A stretch of DNA of 33,085 bases, taken from contig JAAUSE010000010.1 of NCBI GenBank assembly GCA_012031925.1, forward strand, positions 1-33,085. Direction: 5' to 3'. Within the stretch, counting starts at the first letter, position 1. Each line of letters begins with the position of its first letter. The notes under the pieces were generated by a model that saw nothing but the letters and a program-made list of their open reading frames with translations, had not been told where the DNA came from and did no database searches. Made by a program: the position numbers and the translations under genes. The DNA comes from Candidatus Altimarinota bacterium (GTDB taxonomy: Bacteria; Patescibacteriota; JACMRA01). This document shows, one piece after another, positions 18,130 to 26,000 of this stretch.

Positions 18130-18293
18130 TTTTGGGTTCCCCCTGGAAAGCAAAGCTTTTTAGGGAGGAGGAATAATTTCCTTATTTATAGGGTTCCTAA
18201 TAATCTGTTAATTTTGGTAAGAGGAGCAATGAATGGAATAGTGTGAAATTTTGCGAATAGCAAAATGTAACAAAGTGTAATTCATTACGACGA
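18130..18293. repeat. tRNA-flanking structured element A (3' of tRNA-Gly)
   Basis: Directly after the CCA end of tRNA-Gly lies a sequence closely related to that after tRNA-Leu (25808-25914). Shared blocks on the plus strand include TTTTGGGTTCC, GCTTTTTAGGGAGGAGGA, GTGAAA-TTTGC, AGCAAAATGTAACA and TTACGACG. It contains hairpins such as ATTTTGC/GCAAAAT. Copy A has about 50 extra nt in its middle, including a second GGGTTCC. Confidence 0.6.
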
Positions 18294-18367
18294 TGGAGCG
18301 GGTACGGGGAATCGAACCCCGATTTCATCCATGGCAAGGACGTGTTCTACCACTAAACTATACCCGC
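18294..18367 (-). tRNA. tRNA-Gly (GCC)
   Basis: Minus-strand cloverleaf. Acceptor GCGGGTA (18367-18361) pairs with TACCCGC (18304-18298); D-arm AGTTTAGTGG; anticodon loop CTTGCCA with anticodon GCC; T-arm CGGGGTTCGATTCCCCG; discriminator T. CCA is encoded (18296-18294). All arms pair well. Confidence 0.95.
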
Positions 18368-18424
18368 GCTTCCGTATTACTTGCACACTTATATTATTAA
18401 TTAAAAATTAATAATTTTAGTATT

Positions 18425-18498
18425 CCAGAATCCCTCAGCTTTCCCACAATAACAAGTTTTTGCGAGGACCCCAAAAATTGGGAAGACTTGGAATCTGG
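18425..18498. repeat. Imperfect palindromic repeat
   Basis: CCAGAATCC (18425-18433) faces GGAATCTGG (18490-18498). Inside it TTCCCA faces TGGGAA, giving an imperfect stem of about 20 positions around a loop of about 32. It resembles an intergenic REP/MITE-type element in the gap between tRNA-Gly and the wall-protein gene. No second copy is seen in this window. Confidence 0.4.
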
Positions 18499-18581
18499 CT
18501 TTCCTTATACAGTTGTTTTTTGACAAAAGTTGGAGGAAACTAATAGTTAATCTTGGTTAGAATTAAAAAATTGTCAAGAAG

Positions 18582-18601
18582 AAAAAGCCCCGAAGGGCTT
18601 T
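18582..18601 (-). terminator. Intrinsic terminator of the Ser/Thr/Asn-rich protein
   Basis: Stem AAAGCCC/GGGCTTT (18584-18590 with 18595-18601), loop of four, T-run on the minus strand. It is identical to the hairpin of the REP-like repeat at 17391, but lacks the TTCTGAATC half. Confidence 0.8.
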
Positions 18602-18621
18602 GATAATCGTAAGGGGTTGGA

Positions 18622-19653
18622 TTAAAGTTTTAACTTTTTCTTTTTTAGGGAGAGAGTTGAAACTCCACCAAAAGCTCCAAGAGATAGAATAGATGCAATT
18701 GCAAACCCTCCTGATCTTGGTGTTACGTTCACTGAATCAAATGCTTTGGTTGAAGTAGAAACTTTATCTTCAGATTTTGTTGAAGTCTTAGAAGTAGTGT
18801 TTACTTGTGATTGACTTTGGCTTTGAGACTGGCTTTGTTCTTGGTGTTGGTTGTTTTCTATATCACAATCATCATTAGAAGTAGTGTTTGTTGTGTTACC
18901 ATTAGTTGTAACACTAGTTGATGAACATGAGCTTGATGAATTAGTTCCAGAATCGGAATTGGACTCACAAACCTCAGTTGTTACTCCATTAACAGTGGTA
19001 GTTGAGCAACTATCACTAGTAGATGATGTGCTAGAATTACCACTAGCATCAGTAGAAGCTGAAGTTGAACCACCAGAAGTTGAAGTGCTACTTACTGATC
19101 CACTTCCTGAAGCATTAGAATTGCTTGAAGAGCTAGAAGAAGATTGAGCAACTATCTCACTATTATTAGAAATAGATGAGTTTTGGTTGTTGGAAGTATT
19201 GGTACTGACGTTAACATTAGTACCAGTTCCACTTCCAGTAGCTGTAGAATTACCAGTAGTTGAAGCACTAGCGCCTCCGTTACTATTAGTTGAGGTTGCT
19301 GTTCCAGTATTAGTGTGAGTCGAACTTGAGGTATTCCCACCATTGGAGCTAACATTAGAATTGGCTTCTTGATTAGAGTTAGCTGTTGAAGTAATATTAC
19401 CACTAGTTGACGAACTTGATGAGTTGGCTGTGGAGCTAGAAGTACTTGATGAGCTGTTTGTGCTGTTGCTTGAACTGTTTACATCCATATTAATATCATC
19501 AATAAGTGAATTAATATAACTATTAATGTTGTTGGATCCATGATTGTTAAAATTTGAATCTGAATTCCAAGCAAAAGACTGCACAGTAAAAGCAAATACT
19601 GCTGTCAAAAGAACAAAACTAACTGCTCCGTAAAAATATAATTTTCGGTTCAT
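18622..19653 (-). CDS. Ser/Thr/Asn-rich cell-surface protein with sorting-type C-terminus
   Basis: The 343-residue protein has a signal peptide (about 5-28, YGAVSFVLLTAVFAFTVQSFA). About 270 residues of extreme low complexity follow, built from Ser, Thr, Asn and Gly with a short QSQSQSQSQSQ run. One small Cys cluster (SDSCSTTTVNGVTTEVCES and SSSCSSTSV, then DDCD) interrupts it. The end has the tripartite layout of a sortase substrate: TPRSGG (311-316), a hydrophobic helix (FAIASILSLGAFGGVSTLSL) and a KKKKLKL tail. TPRSGG is a variant of LPxTG, so a dedicated sortase is a guess. Likely a glycosylated stalk or fibre. It has its own promoter and terminator. Confidence 0.7.
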   Translation of the reverse strand: MNRKLYFYGAVSFVLLTAVFAFTVQSFAWNSDSNFNNHGSNNINSYINSLIDDINMDVNSSSNSTNSSSSTSSSTANSSSSSTSGNITSTANSNQEANSNVSSNGGNTSSSTHTNTGTATSTNSNGGASASTTGNSTATGSGTGTNVNVSTNTSNNQNSSISNNSEIVAQSSSSSSSNSNASGSGSVSSTSTSGGSTSASTDASGNSSTSSTSDSCSTTTVNGVTTEVCESNSDSGTNSSSSCSSTSVTTNGNTTNTTSNDDCDIENNQHQEQSQSQSQSQSQVNTTSKTSTKSEDKVSTSTKAFDSVNVTPRSGGFAIASILSLGAFGGVSTLSLKKKKLKL

Positions 19654-19685
19654 AAAATAAATAAATAATTTTCTAAATTGGAACT

Positions 19686-19714
19686 ACTATAGCATGTTCT
19701 TGACCTTTTGTCAA
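19686..19714 (-). promoter_or_regulatory. Promoter of the Ser/Thr/Asn-rich surface protein
   Basis: Minus strand: TTGACA (19714-19709), 17-nt spacer ending TGC, TATAGT (19691-19686): near-consensus with an extended -10, in line with an abundant surface protein. Confidence 0.8.
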
Positions 19715-19759
19715 GTAATAAACGGGTTTATTGAGAATTTTATAAATAATACTTAATTA

Positions 19760-19786
19760 TTGACAGTTTTTGGAATAAATTAAAAT
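19760..19786 (+). promoter_or_regulatory. Promoter of the dTTP module
   Basis: TTGACA (19760-19765), 15-nt spacer, TAAAAT (19781-19786). Spacing is short. AGAGG at about 19806-19810 precedes the ATG at 19816. Confidence 0.5.
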
Positions 19787-19815
19787 CTTTTAAAGTTTAA
19801 TTATGTAGAGGTTAT

Positions 19816-20529
19816 ATGGGTAATTACAATAGAATTTCTTTGATTGGTACTCACGGAGCTGGTAAGGGTTTTATTCTTGAGAATGGACCGTTATTTGGTT
19901 GTTTTGATATTTCTAAAAACCCGGTAGTTAGGTCAAGTGTTTCAGCATTTTGGGAGGCTATTAATGAACCAGTTCTAAGAGATATTCATATTGTTGATAG
20001 GTTCAAGTATCAATTTTCTCTCATTGGTGTTGGTGTGAATCAATATCTTGAGAATAAGAACGGAGTTTTTGAAAGATCTCCGCTAGATATAGTTGCTTAT
20101 TGTGAGCTTTTAGTAGAGGATGCTCAAAAAGAGTTTGAAATTGGAGGTATAAGTAGAACAGACTTTGATTATACAAAGCAGACAAATCTTATTGAACTAT
20201 CTAAACAAGCACTGTTTCCCTTCACTGAGAAGGAGATTGATATCTTGGTATATGTGCCATACGATGCCAGAATTGCCGAAATAAGACAAGAAGTAACAGA
20301 TTATAAAGAGCTCAAAAATAATAGCCAACACACTGATGAATTAATTATTATGATTCTTAGAGAGTACTTTGAGTATAATTCAAGTAATAACACTTCAAAA
20401 CGGAAAACAAAATTCATTCATCTTAATTGTCAGCCTGAAGAAAGACTAAAAGTGTTAAAAAATTCCTTAGAAAAATTGGATGATAATTGTAACCAATTTG
20501 TATTCAATGGTCTTAATCTATTGATCTAA
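19816..20529 (+). CDS. P-loop nucleotide kinase-like protein, probably for deoxynucleotides
   Basis: A 237-residue protein with a Walker A loop, SLIGTHGAGKG (residues 8-18), at the very N-terminus. It also has FERSPLDIVAYCELL (about residue 90), the substrate-side motif seen in deoxynucleoside and thymidylate kinases and in AAA_28-type NTPases (pattern (D/E)RSPLDxxAY). The strand DILVYVPYD follows. The two next genes encode ThyX-like and dCTP-deaminase-like enzymes, so a role as dTMP or deoxynucleoside kinase is a reasonable inference, but substrate residues are not certain. The gene has its own promoter, a ribosome-binding site (AGAGG) and a terminator. Confidence 0.6.
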   Translation: MGNYNRISLIGTHGAGKGFILENGPLFGCFDISKNPVVRSSVSAFWEAINEPVLRDIHIVDRFKYQFSLIGVGVNQYLENKNGVFERSPLDIVAYCELLVEDAQKEFEIGGISRTDFDYTKQTNLIELSKQALFPFTEKEIDILVYVPYDARIAEIRQEVTDYKELKNNSQHTDELIIMILREYFEYNSSNNTSKRKTKFIHLNCQPEERLKVLKNSLEKLDDNCNQFVFNGLNLLI

Positions 20530-20534
20530 ACTCC

Positions 20535-20567
20535 TGTCGGCTTTTTGTAGTCGACATTTTTTTGACA
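20535..20567 (+). terminator. Intrinsic terminator merged with a -35 box
   Basis: Stem TGTCGGCT/AGTCGACA (20535-20542 with 20549-20556, one G-U), loop TTTTGT, T-run 20557-20563. The last two T also begin TTGACA (20562-20567). No good -10 is found at the usual distance, so the downstream promoter is uncertain. Confidence 0.7.
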
Positions 20568-20626
20568 AAACCAAGAAAATACTCAAGCTTATGTAGGTCA
20601 AAATTACTTTGATTATTGGAGGAAAA

Positions 20627-22369
20627 ATGGATTCATCAAGATATACTTGGAAGACCTCAAATGTTACAGAAACTGGTCTCAAAGTTATTGCTAATATAAG
20701 TAATGAAACTGGAATAAAGGCTGAAACTGTTGAGTTTAATAGTCTAGTTCCCTATGTTTCATCATTGATGGCGTATAGTGGTGCAAAGATTTCAAGACAA
20801 AATATTGGTTTGGTTGAGCTTTTAACTCAGATCAATAGCATGACCAAGAAAAACGCTTCTCAAGCGATTGGTGGTATTGTAAATTATGGACACGCTTCTG
20901 TTGCTGAAATGTCTCAGTTAATTGTAGTTCTAACAGGAATCACTGATAGTATTGTTACCAAGTTTTTTGCTAACACGAGTGTTGGAGCGGGACAACAATC
21001 TTCAACAAGATATATTGATTTTGGTGGTAGTGGTATTGTTACATTAAGTAGTTACTTCACACTAGAAGAGCTAAAAACTATTAATTCCAAACACCATAAA
21101 TCATATAATTCTTTAAACTCATTACTTACAAGCTATCAACAAAAATCTCTTGAACTTTTTAACCATTGGAGAGATACTCTTACATTTGCTTATTCAAAAC
21201 ATTTTGGGGTTTATGAACAATTGGAAGGAGATGACCCCAAATGGGCTAAAAACCAAAGAAAAAGTGCATTGAGTGCAAGAGTACTTGATACTGCTAGAGC
21301 TTTTTTGACATTTGGTTTGTACAATAGAACTACCATGTTTTATCTGACAAATGCTAGAGAATGGGCTTCTATTATTGGAAGAATGCGTTCTAGTGATGAT
21401 TGGATTGAGAGATACACAGGTGACCAGATCTTTGATCTTTTGGCTCCCCAATTAGAATTGATGGGGGATGTTGATTACACACCTGAGGCTGCTGATTTAA
21501 TCAAGTATGCTTCTATGGATGAGACAACTAAAACTAATTTTGAAAAGCTTGATCAATGGCTTATCAAAAATACAGAATCTTTTCACCCTGACTATTTTTG
21601 TACTAATCAAGCGCGTTTTGAGTTGGATGTTGTTGAATTAAGCGTATCTAAATCATCTACCAGATTCGATCCTACTGTAAGATTAATTGCTTTGATGATT
21701 CTAGAGGTTCGACCGGAATGGAATTTTAGTAAAATTTGCTCTGTTGTGCTTTGTCTAAACTATGAATTACAAATTCAGTTAAGTGATTTACTTCTGCTTA
21801 ATTATGACTGTTACAATATGGTACCAGGAAGGTTCAATACACATTCTTACTCTTTTGACTACGATGCTCCCCTTTCTGTATACAGAGATCTGAATAGACA
21901 CCGGGCCTGGACAAGATATTCACCTCTTGTTAACGGACTTTCTGGCGATAATATATTTCAAGGATTTGGACTTTGTATACCAATGTACTTGAGTCATATT
22001 CAAGAATTTCGAGATGAATTTTATGATGTGTTTGTTGATGATTTGATAAATCTGGAATCTCAAAGACTTGATTTGCTAAATAATTTAAAAAATGAAGTTT
22101 GGATGCATAATAATATAGTCAAAGACACCTTATTATTTGCTACTAACTCACGATTCAATATGTCAGCTGGCATCAAGGAAATCAGTTACATGACTGATAG
22201 AAGGGAACGTCCTGGTGGTCATATTGATTATAGATATTTAGCCTACCAAACTGCCAAGATTCATGCTGATAGCGAACCTATTAACGCAGGATTAAGACTT
22301 AATCGTAAAGGTTTGAATGTGTTAGAACCAGATCCCAAAAACAGATACGACTTTTTAGATCGAAGCTAA
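20627..22369 (+). CDS. thyX: Double-length ThyX-like flavin-dependent thymidylate synthase
   Basis: ThyX methylates dUMP to dTMP with FAD, NADPH and methylenetetrahydrofolate. This 580-residue protein is more than twice the usual ThyX length and looks like two ThyX folds in tandem. Domain 1 has VNYGHASVAEM (86-96) and GQQSSTRYID, matching the 'QSxRY' end of the ThyX motif, but the RHR triplet before it is replaced by ANTSVGA. It then has ARVLDTARAFLTFGLYNRTTMFYLTNAREWASIIGRMR. Domain 2 has DLNRHRAWTRYSP, carrying an RHR (424-426). One site may therefore be built from both halves. GGAGG (20618-20622) selects the ATG at 20627 over a TTG at 20609. The gene lies between the kinase and dcd. Confidence 0.8.
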   Translation: MDSSRYTWKTSNVTETGLKVIANISNETGIKAETVEFNSLVPYVSSLMAYSGAKISRQNIGLVELLTQINSMTKKNASQAIGGIVNYGHASVAEMSQLIVVLTGITDSIVTKFFANTSVGAGQQSSTRYIDFGGSGIVTLSSYFTLEELKTINSKHHKSYNSLNSLLTSYQQKSLELFNHWRDTLTFAYSKHFGVYEQLEGDDPKWAKNQRKSALSARVLDTARAFLTFGLYNRTTMFYLTNAREWASIIGRMRSSDDWIERYTGDQIFDLLAPQLELMGDVDYTPEAADLIKYASMDETTKTNFEKLDQWLIKNTESFHPDYFCTNQARFELDVVELSVSKSSTRFDPTVRLIALMILEVRPEWNFSKICSVVLCLNYELQIQLSDLLLLNYDCYNMVPGRFNTHSYSFDYDAPLSVYRDLNRHRAWTRYSPLVNGLSGDNIFQGFGLCIPMYLSHIQEFRDEFYDVFVDDLINLESQRLDLLNNLKNEVWMHNNIVKDTLLFATNSRFNMSAGIKEISYMTDRRERPGGHIDYRYLAYQTAKIHADSEPINAGLRLNRKGLNVLEPDPKNRYDFLDRS

Positions 22370-22377
22370 TAGACTGA

Positions 22378-22431
22378 CTCCATCATATTGGTGGAGATTT
22401 TTTTGACAAATTGATTTTTATTTGTTATTAG
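22378..22431 (+). promoter_or_regulatory. Terminator fused to the dcd promoter
   Basis: Stem CTCCATC/GGTGGAG (22378-22384 with 22390-22396), loop ATATT, T-run 22398-22404. This flows into TTGACA (22403-22408), 17-nt spacer, TATTAG (22426-22431). GAGGT at 22444-22448 is the ribosome-binding site for the ATG at 22455. Confidence 0.75.
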
Positions 22432-22454
22432 TGGTGAGATCTTGAGGTAAGATA

Positions 22455-23177
22455 ATGGATAATTCGGTGTTAAAGGCAAAATTTATTCCTGATGAGGAAT
22501 TTAAAAAATTCACAGGAAGACTTCCAGATTGGCTAATTAGAAGTTCTGTTGAGGATGGGTATATTTATGTAGATGAAGATAGTAGAGATAATTTTATTGC
22601 GAATATTCAATATTCGAGTGTTGATGTTAGACTGTCACACACTTTGAAATATTTTTACCCTTTTGTGTCAATTGACCCAACTAAACCACAAGATTCAAAT
22701 ATGTGGAATTTGGAATTACCTTCAAAAAATTTGGAAAATGATCAATTAATTAATGGATCTGGACCTGATATTCAACTAAGAAGGATTCAATTTGAGATTG
22801 AAAATTTGTTTTTTGCAGGTGTTGATAATGAAGGATATTTTTTTAGAGTCCCGCCATTAGGTTCTTGTCTTGGTAATATTATTGAGTATATTGGAATAAG
22901 AAACCAATTAGAGTATTTGATTACTGGAAAAAGCAAAATTGCAAGATGCGGGTTGGGTATTGAGGATGCTGGTTTTGCTGACCCTGGATTTCATGGTCGA
23001 ATGACCATAGAGATTAGAAATTCAAATCTCTTTAATCCAGTTATACTTAGACCAGGAATGAAAATTGGACAAATTATGTTTTCCGGTTTGGCGGCTGCTA
23101 CAGAAGAAACTTATAACGATAAAGCCAACAACTTTCAAGATTCCAAAACTGTTATGGCTGGATCTGGAGAAAAATGA
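22455..23177 (+). CDS. dcd: dCTP deaminase / dUTPase-family protein
   Basis: The 240-residue protein belongs to the dCTP deaminase/dUTPase superfamily, which supplies dUMP (via dUTP) for thymidylate synthesis. Core motifs: SSVDVRLSHTL (about 55-65), GKSKIARCGLGIEDAGFADPGFHGRMTIEIRNSN (about 155-190) and RPGMKIGQIMF. These match the 'GRSSxARxGL...AGxIDPGFxGxxTLExxN...pGmkIgQlxF' pattern, including the Glu (in TIEI) equivalent to the catalytic Glu of Dcd. It is longer than E. coli Dcd (193) because of an insert around 70-105. Whether it is mono- or bifunctional (DCD-DUT) cannot be told. The gene has its own promoter and terminator. Confidence 0.85.
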   Translation: MDNSVLKAKFIPDEEFKKFTGRLPDWLIRSSVEDGYIYVDEDSRDNFIANIQYSSVDVRLSHTLKYFYPFVSIDPTKPQDSNMWNLELPSKNLENDQLINGSGPDIQLRRIQFEIENLFFAGVDNEGYFFRVPPLGSCLGNIIEYIGIRNQLEYLITGKSKIARCGLGIEDAGFADPGFHGRMTIEIRNSNLFNPVILRPGMKIGQIMFSGLAAATEETYNDKANNFQDSKTVMAGSGEK

Positions 23178-23181
23178 ATCC

Positions 23182-23210
23182 ACTGACCTATTAGTTTGGG
23201 TCAGTTTTTT
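23182..23210 (+). terminator. Intrinsic terminator after dcd
   Basis: Stem ACTGACCTA/TGGGTCAGT (23182-23190 with 23197-23205, one G-U), loop TTAGTT, then TTTTT. It overlaps the 3' end of the convergent gene by two bases. Confidence 0.85.
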
Positions 23211-23823
23211 ATACATTTTTTTTATTTTGCAAATCTTTGTTTACTTCTTCCAACAAAAGCAAAAAATTGATTAACATATTTTGATCAATTGCCCTATTGG
23301 TATCCATATCATTAACAATTAAATAGATCTGATCTTTTAAAACCCTCTTAAAATCTTCATTACCTGGAATTTTTGAACGACCTAACAGACTTTGGAAGGC
23401 CTTAAAAACTTTTTGATTCTTAGAATTTTTGGCATACCTAATTACATCGTTGATGGTGTCACTGACACTTGAATAATGATTAATATTATCAAAACTTGTT
23501 GGGTACGGCGGCTCAGTACTTTCAAAGGTTCTATCAGTAAATTCTTTGACGCTGCTAATAACCTCTTCTTTACTGTGAGGCTCAAACACTTCTTCTGAAT
23601 TTTTTATCATTTCTTGTACAAATAGTTGAAGTTTTTCTTGAACGGATTTGCGGATTCTACTTATCATTGAGATTTTTTCTTTCGATGATGATTGGTTTTG
23701 TGTGATATCAGGATTATACATAAAATATTTGCTTACTGGTTTACAGTTAAGAAAATAGCCATAAATTTTAAATAAAGTCAAGTAACATATCAAAACCATC
23801 TTAATTCTTTTAGTCAAATTCAT
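23209..23823 (-). CDS. Protein of unknown function
   Basis: A 204-residue protein with a short basic/hydrophobic N-terminus (KRIKMVLICYLTLFKIYGYFL, about 6-25) that could be a membrane anchor. A helical, charged body follows (KEKISMISRIRKSVQEKLQLFVQEMIKNSEEVF) and a helical end (NMLINFLLLLEEVNKDLQNKK). No known motif is seen. The gene converges with dcd and diverges from the lipoprotein gene. Confidence 0.55.
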   Translation of the reverse strand: MNLTKRIKMVLICYLTLFKIYGYFLNCKPVSKYFMYNPDITQNQSSSKEKISMISRIRKSVQEKLQLFVQEMIKNSEEVFEPHSKEEVISSVKEFTDRTFESTEPPYPTSFDNINHYSSVSDTINDVIRYAKNSKNQKVFKAFQSLLGRSKIPGNEDFKRVLKDQIYLIVNDMDTNRAIDQNMLINFLLLLEEVNKDLQNKKNV

Positions 23824-23869
23824 CTAAACCCTCTTTAAGGGAATTAGGTCAGAGATTTGGGAGAAGTTA

Positions 23870-23920
23870 TTGACAAAAGGGTTTTTGTGTGTTATTTTGG
23901 GCCAGTTAAATTTGTTGAGG
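23870..23920 (+). promoter_or_regulatory. Promoter and ribosome-binding site of the lipoprotein gene
   Basis: TTGACA (23870-23875), 17-nt spacer, TATTTT (23893-23898). GAGG at 23917-23920 precedes the ATG at 23928. Confidence 0.75.
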
Positions 23921-23927
23921 AAAAGTA

Positions 23928-24908
23928 ATGAAAAACCCAACTATCTTGGCGACTCTGATTTGTGTTTTGATTGGAATGACTGGATGCAAGGCTGATTCAG
24001 AAGCAGCCTTTGATACTTCGTCTAGCTCCCCAACTCAAGGATCAGTTTTAGAAAAGTATGCAGCTGTTGCCTTTGATCGAAATGGTGATCTCTATACTCA
24101 GTATGGTGAGGATGAAGAAAGTTCAGCCTCGACTGTAGTGCTTGAAAGATGTGAGCAAAAAAGTAGTGATTGTAAGCTTCTAGTTTCTGGTAAAGGACAA
24201 AAAATTTATGTTGCATATAGTTATAATCAAGATGAGAATTATTTTATAAACAGCAATTTTGCTGCAATTATAACTAATGATGAAACTAATCGTGGAACAC
24301 AAAAAGTGATTGATGAATGTGAGCAAGGAGGATACAATTGTAAGATTTGGCGAATTCTGGATCATATAAAAAATATTGAGTATAGATATTACAATATTGA
24401 GGGGCAATTTTTGGAATATCCAGTAGCTATTAAGCCAGAGCTTGACTCACCGCCAACTGAGCAAAATAATTCGAAATATTTAGGAGCAGTGGTAGCTCAT
24501 GAAGTAAATACATCTGATATATATGTTGTTTCAAACGCTAGTAGTATGGAAACAGCTGTCGAGGAGGCTTTGAATTTATGTAAACAAGATAGCAGTAATA
24601 GTATTTCTAGTAATTGTTCACTTGTTTTGGGGAAAAATGCTAGATACATAGTCATATCCAAGACTTTGGAAGGATCGTCTCAAAAATTTGGTACTTATCT
24701 GCCTTTCTCACTTGAATTTACTGATCAATTTGATCAGAGTATTATGGAGCAGATAAATCAAAATTGTAAAAACAGTCAACTTTGGACATCTATGACAGAT
24801 ACAATCTGTCAAATATACGAAGTTTACGATCAGCAAGAACAGCTTAAGTACAGTTACCAAAAAGATATGATTTTTATTAATGACCCAATTGTAACCAAGA
24901 TTGAGTGA
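23928..24908 (+). CDS. Lipoprotein with DUF4189-like repeats
   Basis: The 326-residue protein has a lipoprotein signal, TILATLICVLIGMTGC, with lipobox MTGC (Cys20), so it should be lipid-anchored outside the membrane. The rest contains about three related units, each of the pattern 'aA(V/I)...(g)..y......A...vl..C.....(D/N)C(K/S)(L/I)': EKYAAVAFDRNG...VVLERCEQKSSDCKLL, FAAIITNDET...KVIDECEQGGYNCKIW and LGAVVAHEVN...ALNLCKQDSSNSISSNCSLV. This fits the DUF4189 family of secreted domains with one disulfide per unit, whose function is unknown. The gene has its own promoter, ribosome-binding site and terminator. Confidence 0.7.
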   Translation: MKNPTILATLICVLIGMTGCKADSEAAFDTSSSSPTQGSVLEKYAAVAFDRNGDLYTQYGEDEESSASTVVLERCEQKSSDCKLLVSGKGQKIYVAYSYNQDENYFINSNFAAIITNDETNRGTQKVIDECEQGGYNCKIWRILDHIKNIEYRYYNIEGQFLEYPVAIKPELDSPPTEQNNSKYLGAVVAHEVNTSDIYVVSNASSMETAVEEALNLCKQDSSNSISSNCSLVLGKNARYIVISKTLEGSSQKFGTYLPFSLEFTDQFDQSIMEQINQNCKNSQLWTSMTDTICQIYEVYDQQEQLKYSYQKDMIFINDPIVTKIE

Positions 24909-24927
24909 TAACCATTATCAAAAAACT

Positions 24928-24955
24928 AGAGGTGTTTAATTGACACCTCTTTTTT
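24928..24955 (+). terminator. Terminator of the lipoprotein gene, overlapping the tmRNA promoter
   Basis: Stem AGAGGTGT/ACACCTCT (24928-24935 with 24943-24950), loop of seven, T-run 24950-24955. Its last Ts form the start of TTGACA (24954-24959). Confidence 0.85.
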
Positions 24956-24982
24956 GACAAAAAGTAGATATTAGTCTATTAA
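24954..24982 (+). promoter_or_regulatory. Probable tmRNA promoter
   Basis: TTGACA (24954-24959), 17-nt spacer, TATTAA (24977-24982). Transcription would begin about 70 nt before the mature tmRNA 5' end at 25061, leaving a leader for RNase P to remove. Confidence 0.6.
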
Positions 24983-25060
24983 TCTAATTGCTAATGATTG
25001 TTAGAACTTTTTGTTTTTAAAAAGTATAAGAGCAAAATCAAATGAAGTTTATTTTAATAA

Positions 25061-25546
25061 GGGGATGTATTAGTTTTGACAGTTGGTAGAATTGTTATTT
25101 GGACTAGGTAAGTTGTTAGAAATTCTTTGAAACTAACCACTAACTTAAGTGCAAACAAAACACAATCATTTGTAGATAGAGTTGAAGCTTACGCTGCTTC
25201 TTTGCTACAAGGTGTACCGCAAGCTGCCTAAAATGACTATTTTGTAGTCGTATTAGCGTTAAGCTCGTCGTCACTGACTAGGGTTTGAGAATGTGTATAT
25301 TTTCTCTTATCTTAGCTTAAAATTCTAATGTATACACCATTGTTATCTGTGTGATTGATGCAGAATACAATGCACTCCATCAATCTATCGATCAGTAGTT
25401 TGTTAGTTCTCTATCTATTGATACTGAAATATTGCAACAACTTTTGTTTTAGTTGGAGCATGCAAAACTAAATATGTGTCTAGTCTGAAAAACTGAATAA
25501 CAAAGAAACTAATTGGACGTGGGTGCGAATCCCACCATCTCCACCA
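25061..25546 (+). ncRNA. ssrA: Transfer-messenger RNA (tmRNA)
   Basis: tmRNA frees stalled ribosomes and adds a degradation tag. The 5' end GGGGATGTATTAGTTTTGACAG matches the tmRNA start; GGGGATG (25061-25067) pairs with CATCTCC (25536-25542). The T-arm GTGGGTGCGAATCCCAC and an encoded ACCA complete the tRNA-like part. The tag frame runs from GCA at 25151 to TAA at 25229-25231: ANKTQSFVDRVEAYAASLLQ then GVPQAA, 26 residues. It is longer than the common 8-15 and ends QAA instead of LAA. The 486-nt RNA is also long (about 350-400 is usual). It is the standard one-piece form. Confidence 0.93.
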
Positions 25547-25574
25547 GTAAATTGACATTTTTATGTCAATTTAC
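25547..25574 (+). repeat. Perfect 12-bp inverted repeat directly after tmRNA
   Basis: GTAAATTGACAT (25547-25558) pairs perfectly with ATGTCAATTTAC (25563-25574) around TTTT. It begins at the base after the tmRNA CCA. It may guide 3' processing or transcription arrest. Confidence 0.7.
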
Positions 25575-25700
25575 GGAGATTTTAGGTAAATCTGTGATTT
25601 GCCGTAAAGAAATCTCTTTACACACTATAGGTGTTTATTTTTATGTCAATTTACGGAGATTTTAAGAAAATTTATAATTTTTTGTTAAGAAATCTCTTTA
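25561..25700 (+). repeat. Two 60-nt hairpin repeats with an 80-nt period
   Basis: Units 25561-25620 and 25641-25700 share their first 24 nt and last 14 nt exactly. Each folds with an outer stem GGAGATTT/AAATCTCT (25575-25582 with 25610-25617 in unit 1). The inner stem is GGTAAATC/GATTTGCC in unit 1 (25585-25592 with 25596-25603) and AGAAAATT/AATTTTTT in unit 2. Pairing is kept at all eight positions although bases differ (G-C to A-U, U-G to A-U, C-G to U-A). An alternative hairpin GTAAAG/CTTTAC is possible in unit 1. Confidence 0.7.
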
Positions 25701-25721
25701 AGAATTAATTCCGACTACGAC

Positions 25722-25745
25722 ATTTTGCCCGCTGGGCAAAATTTT
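25722..25745 (+). terminator. Intrinsic terminator after tmRNA and its trailer
   Basis: Perfect 9-bp stem ATTTTGCCC/GGGCAAAAT (25722-25730 with 25734-25742), loop GCT, then TTTTGTT. Confidence 0.75.
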
Positions 25746-25752
25746 GTTATCA

Positions 25753-25780
25753 AAACAAAAAAATAATCGCCATTAGGCGA
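25753..25780 (-). terminator. Intrinsic terminator of the tRNA-Leu transcript
   Basis: Minus strand: stem TCGCC/GGCGA (25780-25776 with 25771-25767), loop TAAT, followed by TTATTTTTTTGTTTTG. It lies past element B, so B is part of the tRNA-Leu precursor. Confidence 0.65.
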
Positions 25781-25807
25781 ATATGATTGTTTAGAACAGG
25801 TTCTTAC

Positions 25808-25914
25808 TTTTGGGTTCCTTGAAAAGCTTGGCTTTTTAGGGAGGAGGAGTAACAAATGTAATGGAGTGAAACTTTGCCAAAGCAAAATGTAACAGAATGA
25901 ATTTTGTTACGACG
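25808..25914. repeat. tRNA-flanking structured element B (3' of tRNA-Leu)
   Basis: This is the related copy of element A, again directly next to the encoded CCA of a tRNA. On the minus strand it contains GTAACA...TGTTAC and TTTTGC-TTTG-GCAAAG hairpins and then CCTCCTCCCTAAAAAGC. It holds no open frame of note. Confidence 0.6.
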
Positions 25915-26000
25915 TGGTGCTGCGGGCGGGACTTGAACCCGCAAGCTCTAGGAGCAAGGGATTTTAAGTCCCTCGTGTATACCAATTCCACCACCGCAGC
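25915..26000 (-). tRNA. tRNA-Leu (UAA)
   Basis: Minus-strand class II tRNA. Acceptor GCTGCGG (26000-25994) pairs with CCGCAGC (25925-25919); anticodon stem AGGGA/TCCCT around CTTAAAA, anticodon TAA; a long variable arm (TTGCTCCTAGAGCTT); T-arm GCGGGTTCAAGTCCCGC; discriminator A; encoded CCA (25917-25915). Confidence 0.95.

Follow-up and report, generated by a model that had tools for sequence, protein, structure and literature searches.

Structured repeats flush with the ends of tRNA, tmRNA and protein-coding genes in Patescibacteria: candidates for a small mobile element

Two related elements that lie directly behind the tRNA-Gly and tRNA-Leu genes of the window, the 33,085-nucleotide stretch of DNA analysed here, are members of a structured repeat family (family 1). 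Family 1 and a second family (family 2) together occupy 15 of the 33 tRNAs of this genome, and related units are found in two further genomes. The copies are joined to gene boundaries, share conserved folds, are numerous, form arrays and are specific to the genome in which they occur. We consider both families to be, on balance, small non-autonomous mobile elements that insert at gene ends, and this explanation ranks ahead of an unlikely one in which they are 3' trailers retained by selection.

The elements behind tRNA-Gly and tRNA-Leu

The source genome (G000; 1.07 Mb, 51 contigs, 81% complete) was searched as a whole and then read stretch by stretch over its 1,068,337 bases. The genes for tRNA-Gly(gcc) (18294-18367) and tRNA-Leu(taa) (25915-26000), identified by ARAGORN and Rfam, are located on the minus strand, which is also the RNA sense of elements A and B on the 3' side of their encoded CCA. 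The first-pass annotation had placed both elements directly 3' of these tRNAs, which was borne out by gaps of 1 nt for element A and 0 nt for element B, and the four sequence blocks that it quoted as common to them are all present in both. Each starts with CGTCGTAA, followed by hairpin A, CTCCTCY, a second hairpin and a GGAACCC end.

Element B is a complete family-1 unit (25808-25914, minus strand), recognized from its sequence and by the covariance model R2 (108.5 bits, E 3.9e-20). Its hairpin A (25849-25910, minus strand; fold z-score -3.5, with covariation across the family) consists of the outer stem GTAACAAA/TTTGTTAC, internal loops and the inner stem TTTTGC/GCAAAG. The pyrimidine linker TCCTCCTCCC (25839-25848, minus strand), similar versions of which are present in copies from G000 and the two other genomes G004 and G311, joins hairpin A to the hairpin B region with its GGAACCCAAAA end (25808-25838, minus strand; assigned from the fold). 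Element B is placed between the CCA of tRNA-Leu and an ordinary intrinsic terminator (25757-25784, minus strand; sequence and terminator scan), which was called 147 nt after the CCA and itself separates element B from an array behind the tmRNA gene. Element A had been described as one element, which holds for the complete unit at 18187-18293 (minus strand; R2 107.1 bits, E 8.1e-20), but the remainder is a second, 5'-truncated unit without hairpin A (18130-18173, minus strand), identified by comparison with 25808-25851 and probably an older copy. Upstream of tRNA-Gly, the window contains an open reading frame for a 343-amino acid, Ser/Thr/Asn-rich low-complexity protein with a likely signal peptide (18622-19653, minus strand).

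A BLAST search of the whole genome with element A retrieved element B (2.8e-11) and a third copy after a tRNA-Thr gene (5.7e-4). R2 extended this to six confident family-1 copies, all at tRNA ends, below which the list is noise (E 0.98). Five of them are positioned 0-1 nt from the CCA of tRNA-Leu(taa), -Thr(tgt), -Gly(gcc), -Gly(tcc) and -Leu(caa), while the sixth is a diverged copy in reverse orientation that abuts the 5' end of tRNA-Gly in the window (18369-18476, plus strand; R2 41.3 bits, E 2.7e-5). Five family-1 copies of G000 share one fold, in which 11 of 19 pairs have changed on both sides; none of 500 shuffles was as good, and shuffled and slid controls came nowhere near. This agrees with the initial impression that the internal hairpins persist despite sequence variation. 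Scattered copies, or an absence of elements from other tRNAs, were looked for and did not occur. The reverse-oriented copy next to tRNA-Gly, the array behind tmRNA and the genome-wide extent of the elements go beyond what had been noted before.

Immediately upstream of tRNA-Thr(tgt), contig C39 carries an insertion sequence (L004, 410-1350) that has terminal repeats (GAACCTGTCGAAAATCTC) and contains a transposase gene. It shares no border with the element, and a link between the two was rejected.

Family 2 at tmRNA, other tRNAs and stop codons

Inspection of the DNA behind every tRNA of G000 revealed family 2, which has the layout GTAnnTnGAnAC-loop-GTnTCnAnnTAC, then GGGAAATTTAG...TTTCC, corresponding to a palindrome (H1) plus a module a. 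It starts with GTAA or GTAT, with these bases inside the stem, and family 1 starts with CGTCG/TCGG. Family 2 follows with no gap behind the window's tmRNA and behind ten tRNAs that lack family 1, i.e., those for Val-tac, Lys-ttt, Lys-ctt, Ile-tat, Phe, Glu-ttc, Tyr, Arg-tcg, Ala and Ser-gga. The covariance model R1, built from ten family-2 copies, has changes on both sides in 17 of 28 pairs. In the window, family-2 hairpins occupy 25547-25701 (plus strand) behind the tmRNA gene (25061-25546, plus strand; Rfam RF00023, E 6.1e-19) and belong to a family other than that of elements A and B. The first unit (25547-25621, plus strand; R1 93.4 bits and sequence) comprises H1 at 25547-25574 and module a and is flush with the tmRNA CCA, and the second (25645-25701, plus strand; R1 52 bits and arm count) is 5'-truncated and lacks the left arm of H1.

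Besides tRNA and tmRNA, family 2 is found at five stop codons, those of tuf, infB, dnaB, parB and yifB. The junctions read TA|GTA in tuf, dnaB and infB, GGGG|GTAA in parB and GGGG|CTAA in yifB, and all five separate codon position 2 from position 3. Because the NCBIfam matches of these genes extend to the end of the profile or close to it, the five genes end naturally. A scan for perfect hairpins with arms of at least 10 found 70 in G000, and the complete H1 palindromes near gene ends in that scan are either flush with the gene or inside the stop codon. Two weak R1 matches are lone H1 palindromes of 28-29 bp (GTAAAATGACACTTAATGTGTCATTTTAC), each lying in frame in a different copy of a repeated coding gene on contig 23 (C23:25546-25574 and C23:28671-28699; L078 and L076).

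Arrays and isoacceptor pairs

In arrays, the gene-proximal unit is intact and the outer units lack their left part: left arms measure 12 bp in most proximal units versus 1-7 bp in distal ones. Of two apparent exceptions, one is the next tRNA's own unit and the other a nested unit; nesting occurs in the parB and Ala arrays. The same polarity is seen in element A and at tRNA-Met, -Gln and -Trp of G004, and it suggests that elements arrived repeatedly next to the gene and that whatever had been there was lost. The two elements of the tRNA-Glu pair in G004 are identical at 102 of 105 positions, and the tRNA-Lys pair of G000 (C16/C40) carries an identical H1 followed by different modules. These isoacceptor genes are on different contigs or far apart. 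Since both pairs share elements, exchange between isoacceptor genes may therefore aid their spread.

Elements in other genomes

Family 2 gave no match in 57 other genomes, five of which are from the same family as G000, and no element was found behind about 25 tRNAs sampled in the same-family genomes G001, G002, G003 and G005. G004, a Patescibacteria MAG (CALITC01) and a relative from a genus other than that of G000, has units with the family-1 layout and a sequence type of its own, 0-3 nt behind the CCA of 13 tRNAs. In its hairpin A, 19 of 26 pairs have changed on both sides and single mismatches are conserved. Further G004 units are located directly after, or about 10 nt downstream of, four stop codons (those of secE, a ribonucleotide reductase gene and two further genes), and one unit (L169), about 35 bp ahead of a start codon, is an exception that lies off the gene ends. 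In addition, a convergent pair of family-1-type units of about 235 bp is present inside the RNase P RNA gene rnpB (C8:33834-34068; L164), with a match to RF00010 on one side (E 5.6e-23) and the P4 motif GAGGAAAGTC on the other; the pair apparently sits at the tip of a peripheral hairpin. A longer variant at L095, L134 and L169 of G004 ends in a common tail that carries two additional hairpins (AGATTATTC...CCAGAATA...TTTTTT) and is perhaps a larger member of the element family.

The model R3, built from G004 copies, was searched over 380 genomes of the phylum and matched only in G004 and in G311, a Patescibacterium of another family. The four G311 units in about 796 kb read are all flush with tRNA ends or within 3-6 nt of them. 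Three adjoin the 5' end of a tRNA (Lys, Phe or Ser(gct)) in reverse orientation, and the fourth follows the CCA of tRNA-Thr(cgt). As G004 was the source of R3, the G311 units independently confirm the link to tRNA ends. The occupied tRNAs differ between genomes, with only partial overlap between G000 and G004, which led us to reject a fixed ancestral set. Among GTDB contigs, the family-1 core pattern occurs on five contigs of one MAG (G004) and as single matches in unrelated bacteria, which are taken as chance; four element patterns had no match in viral contigs.

Terminators, candidate enzymes and known families

The elements end with GGAACCC-AAAA or GGGGACCCC and no U-run follows, and a scan for intrinsic terminators made no call for most of them. 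In G004, a terminator lies within about 60 nt of the CCA for roughly 10 of 15 element-free tRNAs versus 1 of 13 element-bearing ones, a pattern that fits either replacement on insertion or a role as terminator. Few element-free tRNAs of G000 have a nearby terminator, and no trade-off is visible there. A role as intrinsic terminator was rejected because of the missing U-run and the lack of this trade-off in G000.

Searches for a mobilizing enzyme covered reverse transcriptases, Y1 transposases and Xer-type recombinases. Reverse transcriptase (RVT_1, PF00078) was absent from six genomes of the class, all of them incomplete. For the Y1 transposase (PF01797), the likewise incomplete genomes of G004 and G000 gave no match and a match to residues 2-37 only, respectively; the G000 fragment (C46:6-113) lies at a contig end and has an in-frame stop. 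It is similar to an ordinary-looking IS200 with its own hairpin ends in G003 (C7:31734-32096; L183), where no elements were seen behind the tRNAs examined despite this IS200, and the different ends led us to reject it as the source of the elements. Each genome has a single Xer-type recombinase, except G005 with two, whether elements are present or absent; against TIGR02249 the single recombinase scores 126 bits (cut-off 265), with XerA/XerC as best match. Target-site duplications were not found, nor was a second copy of the tRNA end behind elements A and B or in the arrays.

At gathering score, Rfam recognized only tRNA and tmRNA in the window, and the G004 elements had no match beyond chance up to E 1. 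A resemblance to the 16S rRNA 3' end (GTCGTAACAA...CCTCC) was rejected, as the matches are short and not kept across copies. Our literature search found no description that fits these elements.

Proposed origin and alternatives

Elements A and B are copies of a non-coding structured repeat of about 105-125 bp, in which a CCTCC-type linker connects hairpin A, with its fixed internal loops, to hairpin B. In the explanation that we favor, it is a non-autonomous mobile element, and its CGTCG/TCGG end is joined exactly to a gene boundary. This boundary is usually the mature 3' CCA of a tRNA and sometimes a tRNA 5' end, in reverse orientation, or a stop codon. Family 2, with H1 plus module a, behaves likewise in G000, including at tmRNA. 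New copies would enter next to the gene, and older ones would end up outward with their 5' part missing; movement by insertion and this order of arrival are what we infer from the arrangement of the copies. A mobile element targeting tRNA ends was one of three readings offered by the first-pass annotation and is the best supported of them, by elements that are multicopy, genome-specific, on different tRNAs in each genome, arrayed, nested and present in rnpB, although it was too narrow, as stop codons are used too; the other two were a trailer for tRNA 3' processing or stability and a small-RNA family. Against mobility count the stems, which in almost all copies have compensatory changes and mismatches that are conserved and also fit selection in place, the absence of target-site duplications, the position of G004 elements where other tRNAs have terminators, and the lack of a candidate enzyme in the RVT_1, Y1 and Xer searches.

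Selection in place is at the core of the alternative that the elements form or protect the 3' ends of tRNAs and mRNAs, either as terminators without a U-run or as signals for processing or stability. The strong covariation with conserved mismatches, the nearly constant position 3' of genes in G000 and the distribution of terminators in G004 speak for such trailers, but more than half of the tRNAs have no element, the occupied set varies by genome and two unrelated families show the same placement. Trailers also do not predict the reverse-oriented copies next to tRNA 5' ends or the placement at stop codons, and the units inside rnpB, the truncated tandem copies, the ordinary terminator after element B and the missing trade-off in G000 further argue against them, making this alternative unlikely. 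It is considerably more probable, however, than stable small RNAs that would be freed by CCA processing and perhaps act via the CCUCC linker. These would be structured, co-transcribed with the tRNA if read-through occurs, and equipped with a linker that resembles the 16S 3' tail and has CCTCCTTT-like versions in G000 and G311 copies; yet family 2 has no linker, G004 keeps it poorly, copies flanking tRNA 5' ends would be read in antisense and no Rfam family corresponds, so that we regard this as very improbable. Hardly better placed is homologous recombination between tRNA genes, by which an old trailer would be copied via shared tRNA sequence with the CCA junction kept. The nearly identical Glu elements of G004 and the Lys pair of G000, with its shared H1 and differing modules, are in line with it, but it leaves unexplained the copies at stop codons, in rnpB and at tRNA 5' ends, and the spread among isotypes with little shared tRNA sequence.

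Returning to mobile elements, a rather speculative version is that they attach to mature RNA ends rather than to DNA sites, and that the chimera then replaces the locus. Element sequence would be joined to a processed tRNA or tmRNA at its 3' end; joining to the end of a full-length tRNA copy would yield the reverse-oriented 5' cases, and an mRNA cut at the stop codon could account for the five junctions between codon positions 2 and 3.

Comparison with known repeats

REP/BIME sequences, which are mobilized by RAYT transposases (Y1, IS200/IS605-like), are likewise short hairpin repeats between genes, many of them close to gene 3' ends. Family 2 has GTAA or GTAT at the hairpin foot, inside the stem, and the REP type has a GTAG-type tetranucleotide 5' of an imperfect hairpin. 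Unlike REP/BIME sequences, the present elements are flush to the base, concentrated at tRNAs and without an intact Y1 partner in our searches. Rickettsia palindromic elements are hairpin elements of about 100-150 bp that are tolerated at gene and structured-RNA loci. They and similar palindromic repeats match in size and type of locus, but Rickettsia elements insert within genes and are unrelated in sequence, whereas the present ones abut gene ends. Integrative elements with tyrosine integrases also use the 3' ends of tRNA, tmRNA and conserved genes; however, they bring an integrase with them and restore the gene end through att identity, and the present repeats are about 0.1 kb long, gene-free and found on many dissimilar tRNAs. 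Integron attC sites share the position directly behind stop codons, the conservation of structure above sequence and the arrays. In contrast, the only tyrosine recombinase is Xer-like and far under the integron-integrase cut-off, and the neighbors of the present elements are ordinary core genes. Mitochondrial double-hairpin elements (PMC2800124) are similar in their covarying hairpins, their single, double or tandem arrangement and their scattered occurrence by lineage; they are also found inside rRNA genes, and the passages considered here do not report that they abut tRNA ends or stop codons exactly.

Conclusions

The biology of RNA processing in Patescibacteria is little studied. To our knowledge, no small bacterial repeat has been described that is flush with mature tRNA ends in nearly half of a genome's tRNA genes and also present at tmRNA and stop codons. 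If the attachment to RNA ends were true, these repeats would be a mobile element that reads the ends made by RNA maturation. The elements point either to an unrecognized mechanism of insertion by which gene ends are sensed or to a hitherto unrecognized 3'-end signal in Patescibacteria.
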